Below, piece by piece: positions 5,074 through 22,362 of a stretch of 23,371 bases of DNA. The stretch is from a virus, in IMG/VR virus record IMGVR_UViG_3300046007_009305, positions 1 through 23,371 of that record; one strand, written 5' to 3'. Each line of letters starts with the position of its first letter. Position 1 is the stretch's first letter. Position numbers and translations under genes: made by a program. The notes under the pieces are model-generated. The model ran no database searches, was not told where the DNA came from, and saw only the letters and a program-made list of their open reading frames with translations.

Positions 5074-6689
5074 TGTCTCTCCAACAATTTTTTTACGATA
5101 ATCAAATAAGAAGATACATTATTCAGTTTATGAGAATGGTATCTAATTTTCAAGTTGAGTTTGGCAGAGACCGCAATGGTGTTACTGCACTACAAAGAGT
5201 ACCTGTTATCTATGGTGATAGCAGTAGGCAAGCAGCATCTATTATTAAACAAAATAGTGAAAACGTTATGAATGCTGTGCCTGCAATGGCTGTTTATGTC
5301 AGTGGTTTGACTTATGACAGAGCCAGACTGCAAAATCCTAGTTATGTAGGCAAATTAAATGTAAGAGAGCGATACTATGATCCACAAACAGGCGATTATA
5401 GCACTACCCAAGGAGATGTGCTTACTGTAGACAGATTAATGCCGGTTCCTTACAAACTAACTATTAAATTAGATATTTGGACCAGCAACACAGAGCAAAA
5501 ACTTCAGTTATTAGAACAACTTTGTATTCTATTTAATCCAGCACTAGAAATACAAAGCACAGATAACTATATCGATTGGACTAGTATAAGCTATGTATTG
5601 TTAACAGATGTTCAGTGGAGTTCTAGAACTGTTCCGTTGGGCACAGAAAATCCTATAGACATAGCCTCATTAACTTTTGAAATTCCTATCTTTATTAGTG
5701 CACCTGCATTGGTACGTAAATTGGGAGTAATTCAAAGAATAGTTGCCAGTGTGTTTGATGGATCAGGTAATCTAAACGATTCCATATATGACGAATCTAC
5801 CTTGCTTAGTAGACAGTATTATACTCCAATGAATTATGGAGTAATTCTATTAGATAATGAACTTAGATTAGTAAAATATAATCAACCCGTAAAAGATGAA
5901 TTTGGCACACAAGTAATCAAAGAACTTGTAGCCAATGTTACTGCAAATACCACGGTTATACTTACAGATACAGACGGTATTCAAGCAAATATGATAATTA
6001 CCAGTGCCAGTATTGCCAGTAATGTAGATCCTACTATTCAAACTGTACCAAACTGTTTAGTATTGCAAGTAAATGGTGACACTGTTTTAACCAGTAACGT
6101 AATTACAGGCAATATTGGAGATAAAATTGCGTTTACTGCTGTAACCAGAAAAACAGGTGCAAGCGAAGTATGGAGAGATGTAATTAACGTTTATGGAAAC
6201 TTAGTAAATGGCACAAGTTCGATCACTTTAGAATTAGATGATGGAAATGAAGTTGTTGGAACAGTTGCATATAATCCTATTGATGACACTAGTTTAATAT
6301 GGACTGCAGACATAGACACCATTCCTGTAAATACTTTGCAGCCAGTAAACGCCATAATAGATCCTTTAAGTTCGAGACCCAATAGAGATTTACAGGATTT
6401 AGCTCCAGGAACTAGATATTTACTAGTAAATGATTATGTGTCAGCTGAAGGTGCACAACCTGTATATAATTGGTTAGGTATAGACGATACCCCGTTAGAA
6501 GCATATGCTAACGACATAATTCAATTTGATGGACAGCATTGGTCAGTTGTATTTGATTCAAGATACGAAACTACAGTGCAATATGTAACAAACTTGACTA
6601 CCAGCGTACAATATAGGTGGAATGGCTCTACTTGGATTAAAAGTTACGAAGGGTATTACCCGTCAGGAAAATGGTTACTAACAATTTAA
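5073..6689 (+). CDS. gp15: Tail sheath stabilizer / tail completion protein, T4 gp15-like
   Basis: A 538-residue virion protein. The N-terminal ~225 residues follow the T4 gp15 pattern: FFYDNQIRRYIIQFMRMVSNFQVEFGR, then RVPVIYGD, then MPVPYKLTIKLDIWTSN..QKLQLLEQLCILFNPALEIQ, then a conserved strand ending FISAPALVRK. T4 gp15 caps the tail tube and sheath and binds the neck. The protein is about twice the length of T4 gp15 (272 aa). Residues about 230-538 form an extension that is Val/Thr/Asn-rich and ends with short aromatic repeats (QFDGQHWSVVFDS and VQYRWNGSTWIKSYEG). Its ATG overlaps the gp14-like stop by one base (TAATG), consistent with coupled translation and stoichiometric assembly. 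Its last 19 bases overlap the Nudix gene. Confidence 0.8.
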   Translation: MSLQQFFYDNQIRRYIIQFMRMVSNFQVEFGRDRNGVTALQRVPVIYGDSSRQAASIIKQNSENVMNAVPAMAVYVSGLTYDRARLQNPSYVGKLNVRERYYDPQTGDYSTTQGDVLTVDRLMPVPYKLTIKLDIWTSNTEQKLQLLEQLCILFNPALEIQSTDNYIDWTSISYVLLTDVQWSSRTVPLGTENPIDIASLTFEIPIFISAPALVRKLGVIQRIVASVFDGSGNLNDSIYDESTLLSRQYYTPMNYGVILLDNELRLVKYNQPVKDEFGTQVIKELVANVTANTTVILTDTDGIQANMIITSASIASNVDPTIQTVPNCLVLQVNGDTVLTSNVITGNIGDKIAFTAVTRKTGASEVWRDVINVYGNLVNGTSSITLELDDGNEVVGTVAYNPIDDTSLIWTADIDTIPVNTLQPVNAIIDPLSSRPNRDLQDLAPGTRYLLVNDYVSAEGAQPVYNWLGIDDTPLEAYANDIIQFDGQHWSVVFDSRYETTVQYVTNLTTSVQYRWNGSTWIKSYEGYYPSGKWLLTI

Positions 6690-7102
6690 CTGGTTGCGGC
6701 GCTTTAATTTTTTGTACTAGTTCCCAACGGTATCTGTTTCTATTACGAAACAAAGGCAAATATGCTGATAATTGGGGACTGGTTGGTGGAAAAATAGAAC
6801 CCAACGAATCCATTTTATCTGGATTAGAAAGAGAAATCACTGAAGAACTAGGCGGCAAAATTCTTGGTGCGAAAATTTTGCCTATAGAAAAATATACCAG
6901 TGATAATGAAAAATTCATCTATCACACTTTCCTAATCAAAGTTGAGGAAGAATTTATACCGGATTTAAATTCGGAACACAAAGGTTATTGTTGGGTACCA
7001 TTGGAAGATTATCCCAAACCTTTACACCCTGGAATTTTACGTATTCTTAATTCAGAAACAGTTAAGAAAAAACTAGATATACATCAAACAATTAAAGATT
7101 GA
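6671..7102 (+). CDS. Nudix hydrolase
   Basis: A 143-residue Nudix protein. The Nudix box runs from G40 to G61: G40, E46, R54-E55-I56-T57-E58-E59 and G61, fitting Gx5Ex7REUxEExG. Only the final position (G62) departs from the usual aliphatic residue. The preceding NKGKYADNWGLVGGK is the standard substrate-side strand. Such enzymes hydrolyse nucleoside diphosphates linked to another group (NTPs, NDP-sugars, ADP-ribose, oxidised nucleotides); the substrate cannot be read from the sequence. It starts inside the gp15-like gene, so it is probably translated from the same late message. At its 3' end it overlaps the convergent oxygenase gene by 11 bases, leaving no room for an intergenic terminator. 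Confidence 0.9.
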   Translation: MVTNNLTGCGALIFCTSSQRYLFLLRNKGKYADNWGLVGGKIEPNESILSGLEREITEELGGKILGAKILPIEKYTSDNEKFIYHTFLIKVEEEFIPDLNSEHKGYCWVPLEDYPKPLHPGILRILNSETVKKKLDIHQTIKD

Positions 7103-7685
7103 ACACAATACTAGTTCGTGGTTCTTGGCTTTGATTTGGTACAACTTCGTGCCATAACCAGCCCGGCCAAATCATTAACAAGCCTGGATAGGGATCATAC
7201 TTTGTACTGCTCATATTATACCAGTTAGTAGGGTCTTTAACTGCGTAAAGAAAGTCAAAAAACTCTCTATAAGTTTGATGCGGGTAAAAAGTAATAGGGC
7301 TACTTCCCGGCGGAGTTTGTAAATAGTAAATTCCGCTTATACTGCATTGACTATGTAAATGCTTGGCATGTGCAGAGCCTTCTTTGAAACTATTTAGGAA
7401 CATGTAAGGACGCCAATTTACTGCATTACTATCATATCCTTGTAGTTCTAAAAATTCTTTGCCTTTTTGAAGAATAAATTCTCCAAAGTCCTTAAATTGC
7501 GGTTCATAAAATAAATTTCTAGTGCCATGAGTTGTTCTTCCGTTATAGTAAAACTGCTCATTTAAGTTTGTATTAGGATTATCCCAGATTTGCTTGGCGC
7601 TGTTTAACACAGGCTCAATCCATTCGGGATGAAAACTTTTACCTATGACACTAGGGAACCAATGATCTAAAGACATTGTACTCAT
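7092..7685 (-). CDS. 2OG-Fe(II) oxygenase of the TIGR02466 / 2OG-FeII_Oxy_5 type
   Basis: A 197-residue non-haem iron oxygenase. The C-terminal half carries HLHSQCSISGIYYL (H109-L110-H111, then the SGxYYL strand), a GLLMIWPGWLWHEVVPN strand with the distal iron ligand H179, and R190 in EPRTSIVFN for binding 2-oxoglutarate. The usual HxD is replaced by HxH, which I recall as usual for this subfamily. Members often modify unknown substrates and are common in marine phages. It is the last gene of the thirteen-gene leftward operon; its ATG overlaps the preceding oxygenase stop by 4 bases. Substrate and target are unknown. Confidence 0.85.
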   Translation of the reverse strand: MSTMSLDHWFPSVIGKSFHPEWIEPVLNSAKQIWDNPNTNLNEQFYYNGRTTHGTRNLFYEPQFKDFGEFILQKGKEFLELQGYDSNAVNWRPYMFLNSFKEGSAHAKHLHSQCSISGIYYLQTPPGSSPITFYPHQTYREFFDFLYAVKDPTNWYNMSSTKYDPYPGLLMIWPGWLWHEVVPNQSQEPRTSIVFNL

Positions 7686-8221
7686 GATGAAGACTTATTA
7701 AAAAATAATTGCACACTCAGCCTCGGAAATTCTGCAGCATTGGTTACCATGGTAGTGCTGTGCCATAGGGGCGGAATGAACCATATTGCCGAATTGGGAT
7801 GAGGGAATACCCACCCCTGACCTAAACTTTCATGATCATATAAAAACATCCCTCCCCAATTCCAATTCCAACTTTCGTTTATGTAAATAGTGCTACTTAA
7901 TCTAGGACTAGTGTCACTAGAATCATGATGCCAATTAATTTGTGTGCCGGGCAACCAAATATGCATGAAACAGGTTAAATTTTGATAGTCCTTGAATATG
8001 GGATCCACGGCACAATATTTGTCGATAAAATATTGTTTGTATTCTTCTAAGGGAAGAATAAGAACTGGACTATAACTACCGTATTCTAATCCTGCGCCCC
8101 ATCGTCCCATGTTGTTAATTTCAAATGAAGGAGTTCCTTTAGATTTTTCAAATTTATCGCGCAGATTTTGTAAAACATCTGGTTCTAAAAAATTACTAAT
8201 TCGATTTATTATCATATTCAA
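7682..8221 (-). CDS. 2OG-Fe(II) oxygenase, prolyl 4-hydroxylase-like
   Basis: A 179-residue protein with a complete facial triad. The HxD motif is H98-H99-D100 in INWHHDSSD, the distal ligand is H154 in PPLWHSTTMV, and R167 in EFPRLSVQLFF is placed to bind the 2OG carboxylate. The strands STIYINESW and WNWGGMFLYDH between them are the typical core of the prolyl-4-hydroxylase-like superfamily. It should catalyse oxygen-dependent hydroxylation of a protein, sugar or small molecule; the sequence does not say which. It overlaps both neighbours by 4 bases (ATGA-type junctions), so translation is probably coupled. Confidence 0.85.
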   Translation of the reverse strand: MNMIINRISNFLEPDVLQNLRDKFEKSKGTPSFEINNMGRWGAGLEYGSYSPVLILPLEEYKQYFIDKYCAVDPIFKDYQNLTCFMHIWLPGTQINWHHDSSDTSPRLSSTIYINESWNWNWGGMFLYDHESLGQGWVFPHPNSAIWFIPPLWHSTTMVTNAAEFPRLSVQLFFNKSSS

Positions 8222-8769
8222 TACTCGGTTGTAAGAAAGAACAACTGAAACAATCTACCATTTTCTTTGCTTTGACCAAAATAATCTATACTGTTATGAA
8301 ATAAATCACTGTGATAAAGCACTAGTCTATTATATCTATTACCAATTACGTCGTATAACTCCCATTTAGTCATATCTTGTGATTCGTAATTTTCGAGTTC
8401 AGATGCGCGAATAGCTCCGGTTTTTTTATATCTGTAAAATCCAGTTCCACCACTTAGTGGAGCATCGGGTGTCAAATATATGACCCCTGCCCATGTATTA
8501 AAATGGTCTGTGTGTATCCAACTACGATCTCTACTTGTGGCTAATTCAAATGACCCAGTTAAACCATCACGTTCATTCCAATTAGTAATTTCACCTGCTG
8601 CGTTATACAATATCTGACTCAGAGTTGCTTTGGTTGATTCGTTTAAAAAAGAACGTGTTCTGATTCCAGGAAAATTTTCCCTTTTAGCGAATTCTTGTTG
8701 TAAGGCAAAATCTCTAACCCCATCGGGATTGCTGTAAAAATCATCAATAACAATTACATTTGTTTGCAT
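8218..8769 (-). CDS. 2OG-Fe(II) oxygenase-like protein (DUF6445-like), copy A
   Basis: A 183-residue protein with RDRSWIHTDHFNTWAGVIYLTPDAPLSGGTGFY. H86-T87-D88 is the HxD pair, H158 in SDLFHNSIDYFG the distal ligand and R172 in GRLFQLFF the co-substrate arginine. The N-terminal VIDDFYSNPDGVRDFAL is typical of DUF6445-type oxygenases found near glycan and tailoring genes. All residues needed for Fe and 2OG binding are present, so it is probably active. It is a close paralogue of the gene just upstream in the operon (8772-9329), with nearly the same length and the same motif order. Its stop overlaps the next gene by 4 bases. Confidence 0.8.
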   Translation of the reverse strand: MQTNVIVIDDFYSNPDGVRDFALQQEFAKRENFPGIRTRSFLNESTKATLSQILYNAAGEITNWNERDGLTGSFELATSRDRSWIHTDHFNTWAGVIYLTPDAPLSGGTGFYRYKKTGAIRASELENYESQDMTKWELYDVIGNRYNRLVLYHSDLFHNSIDYFGQSKENGRLFQLFFLTTEY

Positions 8770-8771
8770 GA

Positions 8772-9329
8772 TTAAAATTGTGTGTCAAAGAAAAATACTT
8801 GGAACAGTCTTGCATCTTGTGTGTTGCTACCGAAATAATCCAAACTACTATGAAATAAATCGCCTCTATACATTATTAAACGATTATATCTATTTGCAAT
8901 GACATCAACCTTTTCCCACTTCGTCATGTCCTGTGGATCGTAAGATTCTTGACCCATTTCTGCTGCGGTCATGGCTTTATTCTTTTTGTAAAGGAAAATA
9001 CCTGTGCCACCCGAAATAGGAGCATCCGGTGTCAAGTAACATACTGCTGCCCATTTGTTAAAATGATCAGTATGAATCCAACTACGATCTTTTGCATACG
9101 TTAATTGAAAAGATCCAGTATAACCGTTGTCGCTGTACCAATTTGTAATTTCTCCGCCTGCATACCAAACTATTGTTTGAATTGTTTCCTTAACCTCTGG
9201 CGTTAAAAAACTACGTGTTCTATTGCCGGGGAAATTTCCGGTTACATTATATTCTTGCTGTAACGCAAATTCTCTAATAGCATCTGGATCGCCATAAAAA
9301 TCATCAGTGATGATTAAATTAGTTCTCAT
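8772..9329 (-). CDS. 2OG-Fe(II) oxygenase-like protein (DUF6445-like), copy B
   Basis: A 185-residue paralogue of the downstream gene. Shared blocks include DDFY..PD..R.FALQQE, GNRTRSFL, the W-I-H-T-D-H-F-N motif (HxD at H86/D88), YLTPDAP.SGGTG, DMTKWE..DVI.NRYNRL, H160 in DLFHSSLDYFG and R174 in ARLFQVFF. Both copies keep the catalytic residues. They differ mainly in the acidic/basic loop around 112-135 and in the 55-75 region, which may alter the substrate. The two genes are separated by 2 bases and clearly arose by tandem duplication. The start overlaps the stop of the GT10-like gene by 4 bases. Confidence 0.8.
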   Translation of the reverse strand: MRTNLIITDDFYGDPDAIREFALQQEYNVTGNFPGNRTRSFLTPEVKETIQTIVWYAGGEITNWYSDNGYTGSFQLTYAKDRSWIHTDHFNKWAAVCYLTPDAPISGGTGIFLYKKNKAMTAAEMGQESYDPQDMTKWEKVDVIANRYNRLIMYRGDLFHSSLDYFGSNTQDARLFQVFFFDTQF

Positions 9330-10159
9330 AATATTATTTGACTGTTATCAGTATTTAATTTAAATTTTTCAATAATAAATTTTTCAATTTGTTCTTCGAT
9401 TCTTTGAAAAACACTTTTTTCCCAATATGGGCGTGCAAGCTCATAATTTTCTTTAATATAGGGCAACATCTCGTCGTATGTTTCTAAAGTTAAATTTTCG
9501 ATTATTTGTTCAAATTCCTCAATAGTTCTGAACTGCAAAATTCCCTTTGGATTAAAGTATTGCTCTATGTTATGGCAACCAAAGTAAATTGGCACTGTAT
9601 AAGTTTTGAAACAATCTAGTAGTTTTTCTGTAAACATGTTAGGCATGTCTTGATTTTCGCAGGCTATATGAAACTTAGCATTAATGAAAAAAGGATCTTT
9701 GCTGGGAATCATTGGCGGGCTTCTATGAAATTTATATTCGAACACACCCATTGTTTTTGCGTTACGGTATCTTTTCAATATTTTATATCGCATCCTATAA
9801 GGTGCACCATTAATCTTACTGCTCATTATAAAACTTATTTGATTTTGCTTTTGTAAAGGTAAATTGTTTTCTACCCATGAACCTACTGCACAAAATTCTT
9901 GCGCCTGCGGCATAGCTAAAAGTCTGGGATCATAGGCTAAAATCAAATCAAATTTATTTTGACATTCTTTAACCATTCCGTAAAATTTAATATAAAGATT
10001 GGGCGGTTCATTTTGAACTAACACATTTATATCTGCATCGGGGTTATAATTCACATTATCAAAACATACTGCAACTTTAAATGGAAATTTTTTAGTAAAT
10101 CGAAAAGAATGATTTAGCCCGTATGCAGGCATATAACCGCGAGATTCTATTTCGAACAT
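9326..10159 (-). CDS. Glycosyltransferase family 10-like (alpha-fucosyltransferase-type)
   Basis: A 277-residue protein whose C-terminal half has the family 10 donor-binding signature: KFHIACENQ, then MFTEKLLDCFKTYTVPIYFGCHNIEQYF, then GILQF and a helix with EEFEQIIENL. This corresponds to the F..CFEN...YVTEKL.DA...G.VPVYWG pattern of alpha-1,3/1,4-fucosyltransferases that use GDP-fucose. There is no membrane anchor, so it acts in the cytoplasm. No GDP-fucose synthase is present in the window, so the donor could be host GDP-fucose or another GDP-6-deoxyhexose made from the gmd product. Its ATG overlaps the previous stop by one base. Confidence 0.75.
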   Translation of the reverse strand: MFEIESRGYMPAYGLNHSFRFTKKFPFKVAVCFDNVNYNPDADINVLVQNEPPNLYIKFYGMVKECQNKFDLILAYDPRLLAMPQAQEFCAVGSWVENNLPLQKQNQISFIMSSKINGAPYRMRYKILKRYRNAKTMGVFEYKFHRSPPMIPSKDPFFINAKFHIACENQDMPNMFTEKLLDCFKTYTVPIYFGCHNIEQYFNPKGILQFRTIEEFEQIIENLTLETYDEMLPYIKENYELARPYWEKSVFQRIEEQIEKFIIEKFKLNTDNSQIIL

Positions 10160-10920
10160 CAGTACTTAACCCAATTACCAGTTACACCACAGCGACCATG
10201 TACATCCCACGGAACTTGAATTACATCATCTAGTAAATTAAATATTCTTAAAAAATAATACAAAGCATATTCTACGTCTTGATAATAAAATTTTATATTT
10301 TCCATACTGCTTTGAGCACATGCAAATATCAATGCTTCGTATTGATCTATTTTATCCCTGTGCATTCCGTGAGCAACAGTATACGTACCTGTTAGTACTC
10401 CGTCAACAATTAAATCTCTGGGCAACTGATCGGGTGTTAAAAAATCAATTTGCGGTCCTGCCCAAGACATAGGTTTTTTAAGGAAAAATTTATTTTGATT
10501 TTGTTCAGTGTACAGATCTAAATTGAATGTTTGATCAAACCAATATCTTCCACAAAGTTTTGTAACAAAATCGAATTCTTTAAGTAAATTTTTAAAATGT
10601 TTAAAGAACTCAATCATCATTAAACATTCGCAATAACTTTTATTAGAGTAAGTTCTTACTGTATTCGCTATAGTAGAATTTAAATTTTCTAGTTGAAAAT
10701 AATTTACATTTGGTAGATTATGTAATTCACTTAGGTAAGTTGCACTGCTATCTATTAGAAAAATAGTGCTGCCCGGTGCCAGTTGATTACATGAATTAAT
10801 GGTTTTATAAGTTTGCTCCAATCTTTCTTCTGTTGAAAATACTGTGCGTTTTTTAGTTCCTTTGAAAGGCCGGTTAGGATCTAATTCTATACTGGAAGTA
10901 ATAAAAAAAGCGTGTTTCAT
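10159..10920 (-). CDS. Probable glycosyltransferase (GT-A-like), unassigned family
   Basis: A 253-residue soluble protein. The N-terminus MKHAFFITSSIELD, followed by RTVFSTEERLEQTYKTINSCNQLAPGSTIFLIDSS, resembles the opening beta-alpha-beta unit of bacterial sugar transferases (R..QT..TI.S......I.L.D). The central FDFVTKLCGRYWFDQTF is like the K..GRY segment seen in capsule and LPS transferases. The C-terminus is WDVHGRCGVTGNWVKY. No clear DxD motif is visible. The gene sits between two fucosyltransferase-like genes with 4-base and 1-base overlaps, which supports a role in the same glycan. The call rests largely on context. Confidence 0.5.
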   Translation of the reverse strand: MKHAFFITSSIELDPNRPFKGTKKRTVFSTEERLEQTYKTINSCNQLAPGSTIFLIDSSATYLSELHNLPNVNYFQLENLNSTIANTVRTYSNKSYCECLMMIEFFKHFKNLLKEFDFVTKLCGRYWFDQTFNLDLYTEQNQNKFFLKKPMSWAGPQIDFLTPDQLPRDLIVDGVLTGTYTVAHGMHRDKIDQYEALIFACAQSSMENIKFYYQDVEYALYYFLRIFNLLDDVIQVPWDVHGRCGVTGNWVKY

Positions 10921-11765
10921 AATCTAATAACTTTTTTAATCGAATTACTAAAAACTATAGCAGCATTGCTAAAATTACTAGTATTGCAAATTAAACCGCC
11001 GCATCTGGCCAGGGTCATTGCTTCCATAAAACTTTCTTGCCAGAATTGTTTTTTAAAAAACATGTCATATTCCCACGACCATTGCCACCTTTCAGTAATT
11101 TGTTCATTGGGCAATCTTAAGAGATTAGGATAATATCTAATTATATGGCCGTATCTCTGTTCCATTTTAACCAGACTTTCTACATTATCAGTGGCAACAT
11201 AAAGCCCATTATAATTTCCAGTTTCCAATTCTTTATCTATTGCTGCACAATAGTCTTCGAATTGCGCGACATTGTAATTATTGTGCACTGCCATGGTAGT
11301 CATTCTGACATGAGCACCTAAGGTGCGTTCATCTATTTGTACTAATTTACATAGATTATCTACTCTGGTTTTAATTTCATTATGAATGTGAAGTTTACGC
11401 AATACTCGTTTATATTCCTGTAACATGGGACTATGCTCAATAGGATTCTCTTTATCATACATTTTGCCAAAGGGAAGATACCCGTAAAAATTATAAGTTC
11501 TGTCTACGTGCTGATTTAATACATACCCCATAATATGATCATAGGGATTATTGATACCATATGATTCCATAGTATATCTATTTCTAATAATATGATCGAC
11601 TGCTTCTTGAAGATACTCGTCATTATTGGTATTTTCTTCAAAAGGGCTTAAGGACAAAAATGCGTTATCAAATTCTATGTTATGTTCAGCTAAAGGGATC
11701 ACTCCACATTGCAAGAATCTACTGAAAGGGCCTCCTCCTGGTAAAACAAAAATAAAATTTTTCAT
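10917..11765 (-). CDS. GT-B fucosyltransferase-like protein (GT23/O-fucosyltransferase superfamily)
   Basis: A 282-residue protein counted from the ATG at 11765, which overlaps the gmd stop as ATGA. An in-frame ATG at 11780 lies inside gmd and has no visible Shine-Dalgarno sequence. The N-terminal FVLPGGGPFSRFLQC is a glycine-rich loop. The C-terminal half has RTLGAHVRMTTM (the HVR motif that contacts GDP-sugar in NodZ/FUT8/POFUT-type enzymes), GLYVATDN and ARCGGLICNTSNFSNAAIVFS, the usual end of the Rossmann-like donor domain. It most likely transfers a GDP-linked deoxyhexose. Its position directly after gmd supports use of a GDP-sugar made by this operon. Confidence 0.65.
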   Translation of the reverse strand: MKNFIFVLPGGGPFSRFLQCGVIPLAEHNIEFDNAFLSLSPFEENTNNDEYLQEAVDHIIRNRYTMESYGINNPYDHIMGYVLNQHVDRTYNFYGYLPFGKMYDKENPIEHSPMLQEYKRVLRKLHIHNEIKTRVDNLCKLVQIDERTLGAHVRMTTMAVHNNYNVAQFEDYCAAIDKELETGNYNGLYVATDNVESLVKMEQRYGHIIRYYPNLLRLPNEQITERWQWSWEYDMFFKKQFWQESFMEAMTLARCGGLICNTSNFSNAAIVFSNSIKKVIRL

Positions 11766-12730
11766 AATGTTTTCATCCAATGGGCAATCATTTCATCTAG
11801 CATAGATTCAAAAGTATATTTAGGTTGCCATCCCAATTGTGTTCTTATGTCTGAACTATCACCGCGAAGGTATTTAAGTTCTTCAGGTCTTAAAAATTTT
11901 TGGTTTTGAATTACATAATTTTCATAATTCATGTCTAGGCTTTCGAACACATATCTACATAAATCTCTAACGGTGTGACTTTCACCTGTTGCTACAACCC
12001 AATCTCTTGCAGTGTCATGATTTATGATTATATGCATTGCACGAACATAATCATAGCTATGTCCCCAATCCCTTGAACTATCCAAATTGCCCAATTCCAG
12101 TCGATCAGCCAAACCTTTTTTAATTTCCACTGCAGTTTTTACTACTTTATTGGTGACAAAATTTGTTCCCCTCCGTGGACTTTCATGATTAAACAAAATG
12201 CCATTACAGGCATGTAATTTGTATGCATCACGATAATGTCTTGTTAAGTTAAATCCCATAACTTTACTACAACCATAAGGGCTAACCGGAGTCATCGGAG
12301 TTGTTAATCTTTGAACCCCATCGGCGTCAATACTATTACCAAACATTTCGCTGCTGCTAGCTTGATAAAATTTTGCTGTAGGACAAAATTGTCTATACGA
12401 TTCCAGCATGTTTAAAACACCTAGACTGTTAGTCTTAATAGTAAATGCCGGCATATCAAAACTAATCCTGACATGACTCATTGCACCCAGATTATAAATT
12501 TCGTCAGGTTGCACATCATTTATTACTTTAGTTACAGACCATTCATCTGTTAGATCCCCGTATATCCTTGTAATATTGTCGTTAATATGTTGTAATCTAC
12601 TGCTTTGATTTTCAGGTACACTTTGACGTCGTACTATACCAAATACTTCATATCCAAGTTCTAATAGATATTCTGTTAGGTAACTACCGTCTTGACCAGT
12701 AATACCAGTTATTAGTGCTTTCTTTTTCAT
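11762..12730 (-). CDS. gmd: GDP-mannose 4,6-dehydratase
   Basis: A 322-residue short-chain dehydrogenase/reductase, full length for the family. The NADP-binding GITGQDGSYL has the glycines of GxxGxxG at residues 9, 12 and 15. The catalytic set is S127-E128 in ASSSEMFGN and the Y152-x-x-x-K156 pair in SPYGCSK. LFNHESPRRGTNFV and LGNLDSSRDWGHSYDYVRAM are the characteristic GDP-mannose-binding segments of Gmd. It converts GDP-mannose to GDP-4-keto-6-deoxymannose, the branch point to GDP-fucose, GDP-rhamnose and GDP-perosamine. The adjacent aminotransferase and acyltransferase suggest the perosamine-type branch. It overlaps both flanking genes by 4 bases. Confidence 0.95.
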   Translation of the reverse strand: MKKKALITGITGQDGSYLTEYLLELGYEVFGIVRRQSVPENQSSRLQHINDNITRIYGDLTDEWSVTKVINDVQPDEIYNLGAMSHVRISFDMPAFTIKTNSLGVLNMLESYRQFCPTAKFYQASSSEMFGNSIDADGVQRLTTPMTPVSPYGCSKVMGFNLTRHYRDAYKLHACNGILFNHESPRRGTNFVTNKVVKTAVEIKKGLADRLELGNLDSSRDWGHSYDYVRAMHIIINHDTARDWVVATGESHTVRDLCRYVFESLDMNYENYVIQNQKFLRPEELKYLRGDSSDIRTQLGWQPKYTFESMLDEMIAHWMKTL

Positions 12731-13422
12731 ATTAAGTTTTTAAATAATTTCTTTTCACTGAGATCTGCATAATTTTCCCACCCGCCACAATCGGGGTTAT
12801 TTTCAGGGACTTGATCCATTAGTATGATTCCCCGGGCAGCATCTTCTGGAGTCATATACATATGCCAACCGCAGATATCCCCATCATCTTCCCACTGACT
12901 TACTGTTAGATCTCTACCGTCATACCTTGCTTTACTTAACCAAGCATAGGCATCTTTGTCATCAGTAAGAATCATACCCCCGCGACCAATCGGTACACGT
13001 TTTTTAATTTGAAAACTGCAAACATGCAACCCGCCTTGATACATACCTCGACGCCATCTTGTGGCAGCATCCCAAATATTGTAAGGTTTTAATTGATACA
13101 TACCTGACCATTCTTCATGCCTGAATGCAGGAACACAGCCTGCATGCATAATATTCATAGGAATACTTTGATATGTATGTTTAGGTATTTCTACTATACC
13201 TTGTGCTTGTACATATTTTAAACATAAAAATACACCATTAGTGCAACAATCTACTGCAACTGCATACTTTGACCCAGCAAAGTCGGCTACTTTACGTTCA
13301 AAAATTTCCACAGCATCACGTGGGTCTGTCCAGGTGTATCCTAATTTTTTTAATTGCCCTAGTTCAGGTCTTTGAAAATGATCTGGCGGTCGCCCGCTTG
13401 GCCAACTATTAAATTTAGTCAT
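12727..13422 (-). CDS. DegT/DnrJ/EryC1-type sugar aminotransferase, compact form
   Basis: A 231-residue PLP enzyme of the sugar aminotransferase fold. CCTNGVFLCLKYV matches the cofactor-phosphate turn, D118 in IWDAATRW is the pyridine-N partner (usually EDAAQ), and K141 in SFQIKKRVPIGRGGMI is the lysine expected to form the Schiff base (aligned to SFHPTK). The usual GYNYRM..LQAA helix corresponds to GWHMYMTPEDAARGIILMDQV at about 185-205. The protein ends 26 residues later, whereas typical members are about 370 aa with a C-terminal small domain. No frame-shifted remainder exists, because gmd starts within 4 bases. It would aminate the 4-keto sugar made by Gmd, as PerA does, if the compact form is active. 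Confidence 0.75.
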   Translation of the reverse strand: MTKFNSWPSGRPPDHFQRPELGQLKKLGYTWTDPRDAVEIFERKVADFAGSKYAVAVDCCTNGVFLCLKYVQAQGIVEIPKHTYQSIPMNIMHAGCVPAFRHEEWSGMYQLKPYNIWDAATRWRRGMYQGGLHVCSFQIKKRVPIGRGGMILTDDKDAYAWLSKARYDGRDLTVSQWEDDGDICGWHMYMTPEDAARGIILMDQVPENNPDCGGWENYADLSEKKLFKNLI

Positions 13423-13945
13423 TGTATGTATATCCTAATTTAGCTGCATATTCATATGCTTTGTCTTTGTTTCTTTTTCTTATAGGCCTAGCTGGACTTC
13501 CTGCATATACTGTCCACGGTTCCGTGTTTGTCTTGAGCAAACTATTAGCTCCTAAAACACTGCCTTCTGCCATAGTTACTCCTGGAAGAACAACACTATT
13601 AGCAAGCACTCCACTAAAACGTTTTAAGATTATAGGAGCAAGAGTTTGTCGATCTTTATATTCATTTGGGATTAAAGGACCAATTAATCCCTCACCATGA
13701 AACTGCTCACTTCCACATATAAATTTAGAACCGACACTTAAAAAACAAAAATCTTCAACTGTTAATTTAGATAGTTTACCACCTATTACAGCAACATGCG
13801 GACTTATATGAACATAATCGTTAATTTCCAATTGCGTTGAACAATAAAAGAAAGGATCGATAGCAACATGATTTCCAATTCGACACAACTCTACTCTTGT
13901 AAAAATAGCCGTTTTGTCTATACAAACATCAGTTCCTAATTTCAT
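13415..13945 (-). CDS. Left-handed beta-helix acyltransferase (sugar O/N-acetyltransferase)
   Basis: A 176-residue hexapeptide-repeat protein. Imperfect [LIV]GxxxxI turns run from about residue 12 to 150 (for example CRIGNHVAIDPFFY, INDYVHISPHVAVIGG, VTMAEGSVLGANSLL). It closes with PWTVYAGSPARPIRKR, the standard C-terminal signature of trimeric acetyl-CoA-dependent acetyltransferases. Beside gmd and a sugar aminotransferase, the simplest reading is acetylation of the 4-amino group of GDP-perosamine (PerB-like), but O-acetylation of another sugar cannot be excluded. It lies 3 bases after the preceding oxygenase stop and overlaps the aminotransferase by 8 bases. Confidence 0.85.
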   Translation of the reverse strand: MKLGTDVCIDKTAIFTRVELCRIGNHVAIDPFFYCSTQLEINDYVHISPHVAVIGGKLSKLTVEDFCFLSVGSKFICGSEQFHGEGLIGPLIPNEYKDRQTLAPIILKRFSGVLANSVVLPGVTMAEGSVLGANSLLKTNTEPWTVYAGSPARPIRKRNKDKAYEYAAKLGYTYND

Positions 13946-16493: not shown

Positions 16494-17375
16494 TCAAAGC
16501 AGTACCATTAAGAATGATACTAAAATAAGTGAGCCACATAAAAATGTTATTGCTTTATAAAAATCTACTATGGGTGTATCAAAATATGTTTTACCAACAG
16601 CAAAACATTTGTGCGTAGGTGAGAGCATATAGCCTGCATAATCTACTGCCAAAAATAACGGCAAGTATTGTGTACCGAAAATTGTAGATAAAATTGACAC
16701 AAATCCTGCATATTTACTTGAACTTCCCATTGCAAAGCTGAACAGAAAACTTAATAGTGTAGCAATTGCAATAGACCCGTTATTCTTCACGATCTCATAC
16801 ATTTGTGTATCAAAGCTCTTTAAAAAGTTACCTAAGATAATTACTCCAGTTACGGCTGCTAAAACTTTCCATTGAATCCAAGGTTGTTCATGCAAGTGAT
16901 GTTGACAAGTTTGCTTTTTATTCATATCAATTGCAATATCTTCTTCTTTAAGAACAAAAAATATATAGAACAGCCCGACAAATAAACATGTTGCAATTAG
17001 TGGCCAAACTAAAATCAAAAAGTCAAAATAGCTAAGTGACAATACAGCCATTGGCACTATAACAGTTTTTTCCAATGGTGACCAGAAATAGTAATGGTGT
17101 GTGCTCAGATAGTCAATGATCCCATATATTCTTTTTCGATTATCATTAGGTGCTATCGTATCTAAAAAACCTGCTGACACAGTAACTCTACCTTCAATAG
17201 GTAAAATTCCGGAAATAGCACTAATAATTGCGACAACTGCACGTTTAGATTTAACGTTCAACGCTATCCATCTGTACAAAGGCATAAAGATGTTAGTTCT
17301 TTTAGCCCATGCTGCAAATATCATTACTAATGCTAAAAATGCAATGTACCAAAGCCCTTTAAACAAATATTCCAT
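16494..17375 (-). CDS. Polytopic membrane protein, DUF401-like permease
   Basis: A 293-residue hydrophobic protein with roughly seven to nine membrane segments (for example residues 7-24, 45-60, 103-140, 168-184, 200-217, 270-293). Polar conserved-looking motifs sit between them: LPIEGRVTVSAGFLD (58-72), STHHYYFWSP (91-100), GSSSKYAGF (217-225) and GYMLSPTHKC (248-257). The order G-LP-x-G-x-x-SA ... H-x-x-WSP ... GY-x-SP-x-H-C resembles the DUF401 family of putative permeases. A His-rich loop, CQHHLHEQ at 157-164, joins the two halves. Substrate is unknown. It would insert in the host inner membrane. AGGA 7 bases upstream supports the start, one base after the stop of the fusion gene, so the two are probably expressed together. 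Confidence 0.6.
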   Translation of the reverse strand: MEYLFKGLWYIAFLALVMIFAAWAKRTNIFMPLYRWIALNVKSKRAVVAIISAISGILPIEGRVTVSAGFLDTIAPNDNRKRIYGIIDYLSTHHYYFWSPLEKTVIVPMAVLSLSYFDFLILVWPLIATCLFVGLFYIFFVLKEEDIAIDMNKKQTCQHHLHEQPWIQWKVLAAVTGVIILGNFLKSFDTQMYEIVKNNGSIAIATLLSFLFSFAMGSSSKYAGFVSILSTIFGTQYLPLFLAVDYAGYMLSPTHKCFAVGKTYFDTPIVDFYKAITFLCGSLILVSFLMVLL

Positions 17376-17376
17376 T

Positions 17377-19020
17377 TTATTTCCTTACGAGAGTAATATA
17401 AAGTCCATTCCACCATTGATCGGAATCTTCGATTTCATTTAACACAACTTTTTGATACACAATTTTTAAGCCAGCATCTTGAATACCTTTACGTGCACCT
17501 TCTACTACTCCGTCAAAGTTTGCATCGTCGAACACCAAAATTGTATCATCAACGAATTTTTCAGCAAAATATTTCACTGCAAGTTGAGTCATCATTGCGC
17601 TGTGGTCAGCATCATAGAACATAAAATCAATATAGTCGATTTGTGATTTATCTACTTGTAAAAAATTACAGTCGAATAATTTAATTTTACTGTTGCCTTT
17701 ATACTGCCTTGCATTATTAATAAAAGTTTGCTTGTCTGTTTTTATATTAGTAGATCCGTTAGCAGCCTGTGTTTTATTTTGCCAATGATCAACTGCATAG
17801 GCACTCAATGTGTTATTCAATATTGTACTGCAAAAAGTTGCACCGTTTAATACCCCAACTTCCAAATAAGACGTAGAAATTCTACCCAGCAGATTCAATA
17901 ACTGTTTTGTCCTGTTACTAGTAATTCCTTTCACAGGAACGCTGATATTATGATTTACACTATCAACAAGGGCTTGTGCTACTAGTTCGGCTTTTTTATT
18001 ATTTGTGTTACCTTTGGCATGCCAAACTTTATCACAAAAATTACAATCCCAACAATTAAATTTGCAAGTCTTGATAATCTTACGCCATGCATTAATAGGT
18101 CTTTCTTCTAACTTAGTATCTTTTATATATTCATCGAAACTATCAAATAATATGTCTTGGCCAGCGGCAAATCTTTGGATGATATCCATTGTTTCAAACA
18201 ATCGCGAAGGACTTTCTCTGCCGTGCATCTTAAATGTGTCTATGCCTAAGTCCAGCAATTCTAACCAGTCATCTCTCCAAGGTGCCAAGTTAGCTGTCTT
18301 TAATGGTATAGCACTATCTGTTGTATCCCACTTAGGACAACTTACTCTACTAATAGGATCGTTAAAATACTGGGGGCCTGACGTACGAGTGTTGTTAAAT
18401 GCAAAATGTTCATCCATTACTGGGCATCCGCCCAAGCAACCTTCATTAGCCAGTAAAGAAATTTTAATGTTATACTTTTCTTTTACTTTTTTAATTTCTT
18501 TTATCTTATCGTGATCTCGCATCAATACTCGATCTAGATTAATATATTTAAACCCAGCTTCTGCTAACTGTGCTATATCCCGGGGTTCTGTTACTTTTCG
18601 AAGTATTGTGTTTTTAACAAATAAATTAGGAAACTCTTTTTGAACTTGACCCGTAAGCATCCAGTGCGTGTGTGGCAATGTGCATGATCTAATACCAGCA
18701 GTGTACAAAGGTCTAAATGCTTTGATCCAAATATCTAAATTACGCTGATCTGGTCTAATTTCTAAATTATTAAATGTTGCAGAAACAACAATACCAGTTG
18801 TAGATTGAATATGTAACGCTGTTTGTATGGCGAATTCATAGTCTTCCGATTGGATAAAAATGTCGCCCATAGCATCTTGCAGAAAGGGGGGAATTCTGCA
18901 AGTAAAATATATATCATAGATGTACTCTTTGTAATCTAAACAGAATTTAAAGAAAGCATTAAATTCATTTTCAGACAATTTAGGATTTAACGGTACACTG
19001 AATATCTTAGAGATCTTCAC
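17377..19020 (-). CDS. Fusion: U32-like Fe-S barrel domain + SAM-dependent methyltransferase
   Basis: A 547-residue two-domain protein with a GTG start inside the 3' end of the preceding gene (14-base overlap). Residues about 1-335 resemble peptidase U32/UbiU-type TIM barrels: AGFKYINLDRVLMRDHDKI, then KISLLANEGCLGGCP with C195 and C199, C228 in SRVSCPKW, and a C-terminal cluster C319, C323, C326 and C329 (KTCKFNCWDCNFCD). These cysteines could hold an iron-sulfur cluster. Characterised U32-type proteins hydroxylate ubiquinone precursors, rRNA or tRNA without O2. Residues about 370-547 are a class I methyltransferase: YLEVGVLNGATF (385-396), AYAVDHW, IDFMFYDADHS (acidic DADH) and ILVFDDANFDGVV, closest to the Methyltransf_24 type. 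I know of no assigned function for this pairing. The N-terminal call is less certain than the C-terminal one. Confidence 0.65.
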   Translation of the reverse strand: MKISKIFSVPLNPKLSENEFNAFFKFCLDYKEYIYDIYFTCRIPPFLQDAMGDIFIQSEDYEFAIQTALHIQSTTGIVVSATFNNLEIRPDQRNLDIWIKAFRPLYTAGIRSCTLPHTHWMLTGQVQKEFPNLFVKNTILRKVTEPRDIAQLAEAGFKYINLDRVLMRDHDKIKEIKKVKEKYNIKISLLANEGCLGGCPVMDEHFAFNNTRTSGPQYFNDPISRVSCPKWDTTDSAIPLKTANLAPWRDDWLELLDLGIDTFKMHGRESPSRLFETMDIIQRFAAGQDILFDSFDEYIKDTKLEERPINAWRKIIKTCKFNCWDCNFCDKVWHAKGNTNNKKAELVAQALVDSVNHNISVPVKGITSNRTKQLLNLLGRISTSYLEVGVLNGATFCSTILNNTLSAYAVDHWQNKTQAANGSTNIKTDKQTFINNARQYKGNSKIKLFDCNFLQVDKSQIDYIDFMFYDADHSAMMTQLAVKYFAEKFVDDTILVFDDANFDGVVEGARKGIQDAGLKIVYQKVVLNEIEDSDQWWNGLYITLVRK

Positions 19021-19714
19021 TTTGGACTTTGTTGTTTTCTAATGCAAATTGTTGTTTAACTACTTGGTCGATAAATTTGTTTTCTATTGCAACACTGTTT
19101 AGTTCTTCTAATGCCAACTTTTCAGTCTTAGCAATTACTGCACCCAGTAGTGCATTGTACTTTAAGGCAGCTTTAATTGTTTCTTGTTGATCTGTTAATG
19201 GCATCATAGCGATGCTGTCCAAATTGCCTTGCCCTATTCGACCGATAGTTATTAAATCCATTGTAGCCTGTTTGGCTAATCTTGTAACCCAGTAATTTCT
19301 TTCTTCTTCGTCGTTTTGCTGTTTATACGTTTCTAGTGTAGTAAAATCAGGTACTAGATCTTTAACAATTTTCGCAAATTGATCTAGTTCTTCTAAACAG
19401 ATTCGATACTTTTTTTGATAAACAGAAAGGTCATAATCACATTGGTCTATATCAAGTTGAATTAATTCCTTTTTTAAACTATCTGTTTCAAGGGTTAAAT
19501 CTCTGACATGGATCTTTTTTTGAGTTTCTGTTTTTCTTACGTTTCGCTCTATTTGTTTTTTTGCTGCAATTCTTGTTTCTATCTCTAACAATGCCTGTCT
19601 GACACGACGATAATCAGTAACCTGAGAATTAACGACGAAGTATCTCGATTGAAAGTCTGAAACTGCCCACGAGCCGTGGTTCTCTGCTAATTCAAATATT
19701 TGACTATTTTCCAT
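19007..19714 (-). CDS. Coiled-coil protein, function unknown
   Basis: A 235-residue soluble protein. The N-terminus (FELAENHGSWAVSDFQSRYFVV and VTDYRRVRQALLEIETR) leads into a long charged helical region, residues about 40-120, with heptad-like Leu/Ile spacing (LTLETDSLKKELIQLDIDQ). The C-terminal part has YWVTRLAKQATMDLITIGRIGQGNLDSI and a final helix pair. I recall similar YW..R..KQA and GRIG.GNL segments in unassigned proteins near fibre genes of marine T4-like phages, so a virion or assembly role is possible but unproven. AGGT precedes the ATG. The gene starts one base after the previous stop. Confidence 0.6.
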   Translation of the reverse strand: MENSQIFELAENHGSWAVSDFQSRYFVVNSQVTDYRRVRQALLEIETRIAAKKQIERNVRKTETQKKIHVRDLTLETDSLKKELIQLDIDQCDYDLSVYQKKYRICLEELDQFAKIVKDLVPDFTTLETYKQQNDEEERNYWVTRLAKQATMDLITIGRIGQGNLDSIAMMPLTDQQETIKAALKYNALLGAVIAKTEKLALEELNSVAIENKFIDQVVKQQFALENNKVQSEDL

Positions 19715-19715
19715 A

Positions 19716-20270
19716 TTAAAAACCTACATGATAATAATGTCTGCCGATTCTAGAATCAGTATCGGCATCCCATAAAAACAAATCTTTAAGTTGTGTTTTT
19801 CCCATTTCTGTTCCCAACAACCTTTCTTTATGATATGTTATTTCAGATATTGTATTTAATGAATCAATGAATGCCAACAAATCTTCTTTGCCAGACTGAT
19901 CTTCTCTGACAGCATATACATCGTTAACGTTGCCTTTGAATATTCTTTTCATTAAAGATACTACTGCTGTAGTTATTTCAGGTGTAAAATATACCTTAGT
20001 TTTTCTTTTTCCTTGTGCTAAGGCATCTGCATCTGGCTCCAACCCTTCAACATCTGAATATGCCGAACGATATGGTCTATTTTCACCGTAAAATCTCCAG
20101 GCTGTTGTTCCTTCTATTTCAGTAATTTGTTCGTATACAATATTAGTTGGAAAATTATCTGCAGATTCTTCGGTCATTTCAAAAATCGAATAATTATCAA
20201 ACGATGCAATTAATTTAAATCCAGTAAACTGCGGGATCTCTCTTTTAAAATGTGCTATAGCATAAATCAT
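19716..20270 (-). CDS. Unknown protein downstream of fibre genes
   Basis: A 184-residue soluble protein that I do not recognise. It starts MIYAIAHFKREIPQFTGFKLIASFDNYSIFEMTEE, has AWRFYGENRPYRSAYSDVEGLEPDADALAQGKRKTKVYFTPEITTAVV in the middle and ends DLFLWDADTDSRIGRHYYHVGF. No signal peptide, membrane segment or cysteine cluster is visible. It follows the second fibre paralogue with one base between stop and ATG and has a strong AAGGAG 5 bases upstream, so it is made at the same time as the fibres. An accessory role in fibre assembly or attachment would fit the position, as inference only. Confidence 0.55.
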   Translation of the reverse strand: MIYAIAHFKREIPQFTGFKLIASFDNYSIFEMTEESADNFPTNIVYEQITEIEGTTAWRFYGENRPYRSAYSDVEGLEPDADALAQGKRKTKVYFTPEITTAVVSLMKRIFKGNVNDVYAVREDQSGKEDLLAFIDSLNTISEITYHKERLLGTEMGKTQLKDLFLWDADTDSRIGRHYYHVGF

Positions 20271-20271
20271 A

Positions 20272-21318
20272 TTAACTCCTTAAAAATGCTGCCGATGCAG
20301 ATGCGGTTGCAGCCGAACTCATTCCGTCGTGACCTTTTGGCTGAGCTGTTGCTCCTAAACTAACCAAAGAATCTGTTGCATGAGTCACCTTATATGTATT
20401 ATTGTTTTGTGCGCCATTATAATGCCCTAAACAATAACCCCAATTCTGTCCTGTTTGATAATTCTCTTCTCCAGCGTTTCCATCTGGAGCAGTCAAATCT
20501 GTACGAATGTTTGATCCTGTTGTGTCATTCACTTTATATATTCCATTCACAATATTTCCACCATTTTTCACATAAGCGTATCCATCTTTTGTTGGCAAAG
20601 CTTTACCCCATCCATCAGTACCAACAGTAAGACCTCCTGCTGACCAAGTTTCTGTAGAAAATTCTAACTTTAAATTTCTATTGCCTTCATAAGAATGCTT
20701 CACCCACCCATAATATTCTCCATACCAAGTTGCAATAAAATCACCTGCAGTTCCACCACTACCACCCATACCAGCAGAATACATTGTTTCGGTTACTAAA
20801 TTGTGTTTATCAAATAATGTTTGATTTCCAATAATCCACGCCATGGTTAAATTGCTGTTAATTACAACACCAACATCACCATATTGAGTCATATTCTGAG
20901 TTAAGTCCCATGAACTTGAATGAGTTCTTCCTGCCTCTGTTGCCATATTAATAGAACTAGTATATGATCCAGTACCAGGCCAACTATTGCTAGTAGCGTA
21001 AATGTATTGATAATAATCACTATAACTTCCGTCTACATAAGCGGCTGCTAGATCTAATAGATCCCCGAGATTAGTGGTAGTATCCGTTGAGTGAACTGTT
21101 TTATTTGAATTTCTCCAAGGAGCAGAATCCTTGTAGCCACCAGATACAAGACCGTGAGTGTATATTGACCTGTACTTAAATGAGTTAATGAATGGGTTAG
21201 GGCTTGATGTGTCACCTAATGTTGTCCAAGATCCACCGCTGTCGTAAATATAAATTACACCGCTGGGTGCAACATATTGAGTCCCGGTAGTCGGGCTAGT
21301 AGGAAAATCAAAAGCCAT
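20272..21318 (-). CDS. Tail fibre-like virion protein, paralogue 2 (cysteine-poor)
   Basis: A 348-residue Gly/Ser/Thr/Tyr-rich protein starting MAFDFPTSPTTGTQYV, with GVIYIYDSGGSWTTLGD, an N-terminal module common to phage fibres. The body carries WRNSNKT.HSTD.TTNLGD, a SDYYQYIY segment, INMATEAGRTHSS, VTETMYSAG, STETWSAGG and GEENYQTGQNWGYCLGHYNGAQNNNTYKV, ending QPKGHDGMSSAATASASAAFLRS. The same blocks occur in the same order in the gene upstream (21322-22362), so the two are tandem paralogues. Only one cysteine remains. AGGAGG 7 bases upstream, inside the last codons of the previous gene, is the strongest ribosome binding site I noticed in the window. Likely role: host-surface recognition on the tail or baseplate, inferred from composition and neighbours. 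Confidence 0.7.
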   Translation of the reverse strand: MAFDFPTSPTTGTQYVAPSGVIYIYDSGGSWTTLGDTSSPNPFINSFKYRSIYTHGLVSGGYKDSAPWRNSNKTVHSTDTTTNLGDLLDLAAAYVDGSYSDYYQYIYATSNSWPGTGSYTSSINMATEAGRTHSSSWDLTQNMTQYGDVGVVINSNLTMAWIIGNQTLFDKHNLVTETMYSAGMGGSGGTAGDFIATWYGEYYGWVKHSYEGNRNLKLEFSTETWSAGGLTVGTDGWGKALPTKDGYAYVKNGGNIVNGIYKVNDTTGSNIRTDLTAPDGNAGEENYQTGQNWGYCLGHYNGAQNNNTYKVTHATDSLVSLGATAQPKGHDGMSSAATASASAAFLRS

Positions 21319-21321
21319 AAA

Positions 21322-22362
21322 TTACCCTCCTAATAGGGCTGCTGCTCCTGTGCCACAGCAACCCGAGCTCATTCCGTCGTGTCCTTTAGGTTGTGTATCG
21401 GATCCCATCGCTGTAGATGTATCAGTTAGATAATTTATCTTTTGTGTATTGTTGGTTTGATTACCATTATATGATCCCAGACTATAGCCGCAGTTTTGTC
21501 CAACTTGGTGATTTTCTTCTCCGCATGTATCGGGCCTACTCACTGTAGTAACTGCGGTTGTACCTGGAGTAAAATCATTCCATTTATTGTAAGTGGCTGA
21601 ACCATTGTACGAACCTGTTGCACAATAACCATACCCTAACTTGCTTGATAACCCTTTTGGCTGACCGTCTGACCCCGAACTCCAAGTTCCACTGGTCCAG
21701 GTCTCAGTAGACCAATCAATATATGCCGCAGTACTGTCGACTGCTATCCATCCTCTATATTCTCCGAATAACGCGGCTATCCCGGTAGCGGTCCCACCCG
21801 TTGTTGCTGGGTTAGCAGGAGCTGAACCAGCATTATACATAGTTTCAGTCACATAATTATGTTTGTCTGTGGCCGTAGAACCCCCTCCGGTTATATAAGC
21901 GATAGTTAAGGTAGAATTCATTAACGCTTCACAATCGCCTCTTGAAGTTTTTGTGTTCCAAGCAGAATTTTGTGTTCTACCAGAATCTGTTGCCATATTA
22001 ACAGATGATGTTGTTGTAGATGATCCATTTACTGCGCCTGACATTCCATAAACATAGTGATAATAATCACTAAACCCTCCACCAATATAAGATGCATTAG
22101 CATCCAACATATCACCTAGATTAGTTGTAATATCTGTTGAGTGCTGTGTTTTGTTGACATTACGCCAAGGACTACCGTTTTTATACCCTGCAGACACATA
22201 GCCTCTACTGTATATAGTCCTATATCTAAAACTGTTTATAAACGGATTTGGAGTTTGTGTATCTCCTTTAGTGGTCCAAGTAGAATCATACAAGTATAGT
22301 AAACCATTAGTAGTTACATATTGGTTTCCTGTACTAGGACTTGAAGGGAAATCAAATGCCAT
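21322..22362 (-). CDS. Tail fibre-like virion protein, paralogue 1 (cysteine-containing)
   Basis: A 346-residue paralogue of the next gene, starting MAFDFPSSPSTGNQYV, with LLYLYDSTWTTKGD, YKNGSPWRNVNKTQHSTD, SDYYHYVYG, VNMATDSGRT, VTETMYNAG, STETWTSGTW, QPKGLSSKLGYGYC, GEENHQVGQNCGYSLGSYNGNQTNNTQKINYLTD and the end QPKGHDGMSSGCCGTGAAALLGG. It has six cysteines, two of them adjacent near the C-terminus, where the other copy has one in total. Repeated TW/GY/GSYNG elements suggest a beta-propeller-like or other repeat-built beta fold. A late-type AATAAATA box lies just upstream (22387-22380); the Shine-Dalgarno sequence is weak. Confidence 0.7.
   Translation of the reverse strand: MAFDFPSSPSTGNQYVTTNGLLYLYDSTWTTKGDTQTPNPFINSFRYRTIYSRGYVSAGYKNGSPWRNVNKTQHSTDITTNLGDMLDANASYIGGGFSDYYHYVYGMSGAVNGSSTTTSSVNMATDSGRTQNSAWNTKTSRGDCEALMNSTLTIAYITGGGSTATDKHNYVTETMYNAGSAPANPATTGGTATGIAALFGEYRGWIAVDSTAAYIDWSTETWTSGTWSSGSDGQPKGLSSKLGYGYCATGSYNGSATYNKWNDFTPGTTAVTTVSRPDTCGEENHQVGQNCGYSLGSYNGNQTNNTQKINYLTDTSTAMGSDTQPKGHDGMSSGCCGTGAAALLGG
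21326..21331 (-). promoter_or_regulatory. Full-consensus ribosome binding site for fibre paralogue 2
   Basis: AGGAGG on the minus strand, 7 bases before the ATG at 21318. It lies within the last Gly-Gly codons of the preceding gene and runs up to its TAA stop, which ties the two genes together and fixes the start. Confidence 0.85.

Follow-up and report, generated by a model that had tools for sequence, protein, structure and literature searches.

This locus raises the question of what a phage would do with a protein that may first oxidise a substrate and then methylate the oxygen just added. Few enzymes are thought to hydroxylate without O2, and U32 oxidases belong to that small set. A preliminary description of this DNA proposed that one protein joins a U32-type barrel, carrying seven candidate cluster cysteines, to a Methyltransf_24-like domain. 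The protein is encoded in a viral stretch of 23,371 nucleotides (IMG/VR record IMGVR_UViG_3300046007_009305), referred to here as the window. The minus strand of positions 17377-19020 translates as an open reading frame of 547 amino acids with a GTG start, and the plus-strand reading of the same positions is riddled with stops. Hundreds of conserved homologues exclude a chance reading frame. Residues 51-547 match PHROG 1458 in a PHROGs search (E 2.7e-164), a family which has no annotation. AlphaFold2, with an input alignment of 62 sequences, predicts two confident domains (mean pLDDT 89.9 for the whole protein, 84.7 for the N-terminal domain alone). We regard the architecture of a U32-type barrel followed by an O-methyltransferase domain as firm. 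The gene and its two domains are located as follows.

17377..19020, minus strand: whole enzyme gene, 547 amino acids; T4-GC 354 in annotated cyanophages, PHROG 1458
18016..19020, minus strand: N-terminal domain, residues 1-335; U32-type TIM barrel with a C-terminal cysteine motif (AlphaFold2, match to 5D88, profile bridge)
17380..17913, minus strand: C-terminal domain, residues 370-547; COMT/TrmR-like class I O-methyltransferase (Pfam Methyltransf_24, fold match, TrmR profile match)

The top match of the N-terminal domain among solved structures is the U32 protein Mk0906 (5D88), with Z 16.9 and 219 of 247 residues aligned. MTHFR and other TIM barrels score Z 13.6 or lower, that is 3.3 below 5D88. 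The Pfam family Peptidase_U32 (PF01136) gave no match to 20 family members at E up to 1, and direct searches of the domain in Pfam, NCBIfam and, as a single sequence, the PDB found no match. Profile comparisons with UbiU, UbiV, TrhP and RlhA one by one were weak, the best giving 0.0019, so bridging proteins were needed. The phage N-domain profile finds such proteins in Chloroflexota, at E 7e-13 to 2e-32. Chloroflexota L124/L145 matches the phage profile at E 6.8e-13 and Pfam Peptidase_U32 at E 1.1e-15, with a weak match to TrhP, and the seven-cysteine relatives L146 and L147 also match Peptidase_U32. With hhalign the phage profile is linked to the bridge at 2e-18 and the bridge to UbiU/TrhP/RlhA at 4.6e-14; five unrelated non-U32 controls gave 0.15 or worse. 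Fold and homology via intermediates support the placement of this domain in the U32 superfamily. Stray Pfam matches in single family members, including Yippee and AP_endonuc_2, were below significance.

The enzyme has cysteines at residues 27, 41, 113, 195, 199, 228, 319, 323, 326, 329, 397 and 451. The seven that had been named as candidate cluster ligands (C195, C199, C228, C319, C323, C326 and C329) lie exactly at the positions given and are invariant in the alignment of 62 homologues (62/62), in which the other five (27, 41, 113, 397 and 451) vary. In a 15-sequence alignment of phage and bacterial proteins every row keeps C195, C199, P200, H205, C228, K264, G267, R268, C319, C323, C326 and C329. 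These residues fall into the following motifs.

18424..18438, minus strand: C195-x3-C199, which opens a CxxxCPxxxxH motif; in 62/62 phage sequences and in the bacterial relatives
18406..18408, minus strand: H205, the histidine of CxxxCPxxxxH and a possible extra ligand; invariant
18337..18339, minus strand: C228; invariant
18217..18231, minus strand: K264-M-H-G-R268, counterpart of KIEGR in UbiU, TrhP and RlhA; K264, G267 and R268 invariant in phage and bacteria
18034..18066, minus strand: C319-x3-C323-x2-C326-x2-C329, a four-cysteine motif absent from canonical U32 oxidases; invariant

The phage protein has in common with the U32 oxidases UbiU/UbiV, TrhP and RlhA (PF01136) the TIM barrel, the KxxGR motif and a site rich in cysteines that follows one of the late barrel strands, the profile link running through bacterial seven-cysteine U32 proteins. 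It differs in being viral, in its fused methyltransferase and in the added CX3CX2CX2C. Oxidases of the UbiU/TrhP/RlhA type are further marked by a bound [4Fe-4S] cluster and by hydroxylation that depends on prephenate. Canonical U32 oxidases carry four cysteines as CX6CX15CX3/4C (PMC6747719, PMC11574389). This motif is not present in the phage domain, where CX3CP-X4-H and the lone C228 stand in the place of the CX6CX15CX3C of UbiU/UbiV, TrhP and RlhA. Because the canonical motif is replaced and a further four-cysteine motif is added, hydroxylase activity is not simply transferable to this domain. TrhP requires a glutamate, E162, whose equivalent in RlhA is E161. Reading the alignments by eye we found no conserved glutamate at the corresponding place, eight residues N-terminal to the first cysteine; the nearby E193 is out of register with it. 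The U32-type barrel of the preliminary description thus holds for the fold and for the bridge through bacterial U32 proteins, and not for the canonical oxidase motif: within the superfamily the domain is divergent and of a seven-cysteine type.

A radical SAM relative had been raised as the alternative fold. Structure searches with the domains taken separately place the U32 protein 5D88 first for the N-terminal domain and lend no support to that alternative, which we rejected. In radical SAM proteins the signature CX3CX2C occupies the loop that follows the first barrel strand. The sole CX3CX2C here, residues 319-326, is part of CX3CX2CX2C and lies past the last predicted barrel strand (262-265). 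The fold ranking also argues against such a relationship; there is no radical SAM protein among the fold matches listed, which alone excludes nothing.

The C-terminal half bears out the proposed Methyltransf_24-like domain. Pfam Methyltransf_24 matches residues 386-499 at E 2e-7, above the Pfam cut-off, and the fold is of the COMT type, with Z about 17 (TomG and bacterial COMT, Z 17.2; TrmR, Z 15.9). TrmR (YrrM, PDB 5ZW3/5ZW4) is the B. subtilis tRNA ho5U34 O-methyltransferase and has the class I fold in common with the phage domain. When the C-domain profile is compared with PDB sequences, TrmR alone gives a significant match (E 9e-5); the match was 1.4e-3 with a subset profile and absent with a cyanophage-like subset profile and with a single-sequence query. 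Residues G389, G393, D411, D470, D498 and D499 are invariant in the 62 homologues, three of them being predicted metal ligands.

17611..17613, minus strand: D470, predicted metal ligand; invariant in 62/62, aligned with the D of the TrmR IDAAK motif
17524..17529, minus strand: D498-D499, predicted metal ligands (Asp-Asn in COMT-type enzymes); invariant, aligned with 'DN' of TrmR

The third metal position, D499, is Asp and not the COMT-type Asn in 62/62 sequences. Position 473, which holds the general-base Lys of COMT (D-x-x-K), is His in 54/62, Asn in 5/62 and Lys in 1/62. The Asn ligand and the Lys base, both found in TrmR, are therefore replaced, so the resemblance to TrmR and COMT lies in fold and role and does not extend to membership. 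The evidence supports a COMT-like O-methyltransferase, predicted from sequence to be a divalent-cation-dependent class I enzyme. A match of this domain to Cas_phi3 (E 0.005 to 0.18) was taken as chance.

TrmR is the natural partner of U32 hydroxylases, but it is a separate protein, whereas the phage domain is fused. In Bacillus, TrmR O-methylates the hydroxyl made by the U32 proteins TrhP1/TrhP2, and trmR and trhP1/trhP2 share an operon (PMC6599085). In three species trmR is joined in one gene with that of the O2-dependent ho5U hydroxylase (PMC6599085). These TrhO-TrmR fusions (Phytophthora, Phaeodactylum; PMC6599085) resemble the phage protein in having hydroxylase and O-methyltransferase on one polypeptide, but their hydroxylase is of the rhodanese family and O2-dependent, whereas the phage N-domain is U32-type.

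The family is the same as PHROG 1458/T4-GC 354 of cyanomyoviruses, where it is annotated as hypothetical (P-HM2 PHM2_101, S-ShM2 SShM2_051). The full-length protein is present in 123 phage records, all from Synechococcus or Prochlorococcus phages and all labelled hypothetical, and the fusion is found in more than 570 IMG/VR stretches. A search with the tail sheath stabiliser matches 380 Synechococcus, cyanophage or Prochlorococcus records; by this comparison the fusion gene is widespread in these phages without being universal. Searches of the literature on U32 proteins with cyanophage or phage auxiliary genes returned nothing relevant. The suggestion that no phage enzyme of this kind had been described thus fits the literature searched, in which the fusion does not appear, but the protein is not rare. 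A testable function can now be offered for a gene annotated as hypothetical in 123 sequenced cyanophage records and carried by hundreds of metagenomic viruses. The first genome scan turned up no more than two MAG contigs, which carry the fusion in full or its beginning and look viral. With no close cellular copy in that scan, recent transfer from a bacterium was rejected. An archaeal-side search (the phylum of G003) gave no further real homologue, and a plasmid search gave no match.

Proteins with the N-terminal domain and no methyltransferase are found on other viral contigs (L148-L155) and in Chloroflexota (L139-L147). In an IQ-TREE tree of the barrel the fused proteins lie on a single branch, with a support of 48 for exactly that node. 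With L148 as the one exception, the stand-alone proteins of viruses cluster with those of Chloroflexota (support 100); L148 falls outside both groups. A single fusion event is the simplest reading of this tree. The Chloroflexota proteins have all seven cysteines, the histidine and KxxGR, and are unfused. In three genomes the gene lies directly downstream of, or overlaps, a gene for an O-methyltransferase, which belongs to Methyltransf_2, whereas the phage domain belongs to Methyltransf_24. The three pairs are given below.

L142, 6739-9017: O-methyltransferase and seven-cysteine U32 gene pair
L143, 8449-10762: O-methyltransferase and seven-cysteine U32 gene pair
L144, 6807-9179: O-methyltransferase and seven-cysteine U32 gene pair

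The same three loci adjoin genes for TAT-signal, 4Fe-4S proteins. From their signal peptide and Fer4 matches, and from general knowledge, we describe these as reductive-dehalogenase-like. The seven-cysteine subgroup, comprising phage, stand-alone viral and Chloroflexota proteins, widens the U32 superfamily and brings a probable second cluster to it. Another Chloroflexota genome has a second seven-cysteine copy near a DAHP synthase gene (L141). At 6.2-11 kb on two viral contigs (L149 and L152) the stand-alone protein adjoins a tryptophan halogenase and about eight small paralogous genes in a row; the paralogue tested, from L152, has its best match to phrog_274 and a weaker one to a 2OG-oxygenase family.

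The enzyme gene of the window lies among tail genes, and the tail-fibre region is rich in tailoring enzymes. Two genes, GC351 and GC353, are found upstream of it in 80/80 neighbourhoods, with tight or overlapping borders. The window has the following neighbours.

19007..19714, minus strand: GC353 (phrog_1409), just upstream; overlaps the enzyme gene by 14 nt
19716..20270, minus strand: small upstream gene, weak match to phrog_1604
20272..21318, minus strand: GC351 copy (phrog_1417) with conserved C-terminal segment; in 80/80 neighbourhoods
21322..22362, minus strand: second GC351 copy (phrog_1417)
16494..17375, minus strand: DUF401-like permease (Pfam DUF401), directly downstream; homologue in 52/80 neighbourhoods

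The number of phage records with GC351 is likewise exactly 123, and their breakdown by organism equals that for the enzyme (the accession lists were compared in part). Residues G330, S332 and S333 of GC351, which lie no further than about 20 residues from its C-terminus, are kept in 128-130 of 130 copies. In the 80 neighbourhoods genes for 2OG oxygenases or tryptophan halogenases often overlap the 3' end of the enzyme gene; beyond these tailoring oxidases and the permease, the downstream neighbours differ between phages. A late-promoter motif was not enriched upstream of the cassette.

The tails of GC351 past the conserved segment are highly variable (SSGxxxWRD, SSGCCGTG...). Tryptophan occurs in the last residues of GC351 in 15/17 loci with a neighbouring tryptophan halogenase and in 21/63 others (p 6e-5), a link that weakens once loci are clustered by relatedness (p 0.02 at 85% identity, p 0.1 at 75%).

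We hypothesise that the two domains act in sequence. The N-terminal domain would probably bind two Fe-S clusters, one on the barrel through C195, C199, C228 and perhaps H205, the other after the barrel through C319, C323, C326 and C329. It would then oxidise a substrate, most likely by O2-independent hydroxylation as in UbiU/V, TrhP and RlhA, and the C-terminal domain would use SAM to methylate the resulting hydroxyl, on the model of TrhP1/TrhP2 and TrmR (U to ho5U to mo5U). As the substrate, the genetic setting would favour some component of the tail-fibre or host-surface module (the GC351/GC353 cassette) over host quinone. Coupled oxidation and O-methylation is favoured by the Bacillus precedent together with the independent pairing with an O-methyltransferase in three Chloroflexota genomes. 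It is weakened by the missing canonical cysteine motif, the want of an obvious counterpart of TrhP E162, the modest TrmR match, and the changes at the COMT base (mostly His) and Asn ligand (Asp). Drawn by analogy, it is the best mechanism we can propose and has, in our estimate, about an even chance of being correct. Coupling to methylation would not be obligatory, since other viruses have the N-terminal domain alone. As a natural fusion of a U32 protein to an O-methyltransferase, the enzyme offers a single-protein test of 'oxidise, then cap'.

If the chemistry is of this kind, the target could be the virion itself, the enzyme modifying a neighbouring tail-region protein, most likely GC351. 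The constant company of GC351 and GC353, the equal numbers of phage records for GC351 and the enzyme, the near-invariant G330, S332 and S333, and the overlapping oxygenase and halogenase genes all point this way. However, the conservation at the C-terminus of GC351 may be structural, the stand-alone viral relatives have no GC351 nearby, and we know of no U32 protein that hydroxylates proteins; we hold this target to be a tentative possibility. The fuller picture, a two-cluster seven-cysteine U32 class with which phages oxidise and O-methylate their own tail-region protein GC351 in a maturation cassette that recurs between phages and also includes 2OG oxygenases and a flavin halogenase, is speculative and very unlikely to hold as a whole. 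A small molecule, lipid or glycan (a surface polysaccharide, quinone or aromatic metabolite) would suit the adjoining DUF401 permease, which might handle a related compound, as well as the sugar-nucleotide and glycosyltransferase cluster of the window and the action of UbiU/UbiV on quinones; it sits poorly with downstream neighbours that vary while GC351 and GC353 are constant, and is unlikely.

TrmR, as the sole significant PDB match of the C-domain profile, raises a different possibility, that a fused TrhP-TrmR-like enzyme acts on tRNA or rRNA during infection, installing 5-methoxyuridine or a different base that is first hydroxylated and then O-methylated, and so tunes the decoding of phage messages. 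RNA hydroxylases are among the characterised U32 oxidases, and trmR and trhP are co-operonic. Nevertheless the N-terminal domain is nearer to seven-cysteine U32 proteins of no assigned function than to TrhP, no RNA-binding domain is seen in the enzyme, the gene is tied to genes of the tail region, and a search of the window gave no tRNA or RNA elements; we consider modification of RNA quite unlikely. The N-terminal domain might also not be an oxidase, catalysing instead a different reaction of the Fe-S or metal kind, such as dehydration or sulfur chemistry, or serving as a structural Fe-S or Zn protein, with the methyltransferase acting separately. The bacterial relatives adjoin reductive-dehalogenase-like genes in anaerobes, the canonical cysteine motif is missing, and two U32 families have been reported without the conserved four-cysteine set (PMC6747719). 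The strict conservation of barrel, KxxGR and cysteines, and the recurrent pairing with an O-methyltransferase, make a non-oxidase improbable, and coupled oxidation and O-methylation is retained as the working mechanism.

Elsewhere in the window, positions 7092-9329 carry four consecutive genes, two for 2OG-Fe(II) oxygenases and two for DUF6445 proteins; in related phages the 3' end of the enzyme gene is often overlapped by a homologue of the first oxygenase (2OG-FeII_Oxy_5). The sugar cluster at 9326-13945 encodes a GDP-mannose 4,6-dehydratase, a hexapeptide acyltransferase-like protein, a GT10 fucosyltransferase-like protein and a DegT-type aminotransferase, the last of which is short (231 amino acids) and perhaps truncated. 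This cluster suggests a fucose-like surface glycan. The tail sheath stabiliser at 5073-6689 is closest to those of jumbo phages (Agrobacterium Atu_ph07, Xanthomonas XbC2, Erwinia), not of cyanophages, so the host of this virus may not be a cyanobacterium.
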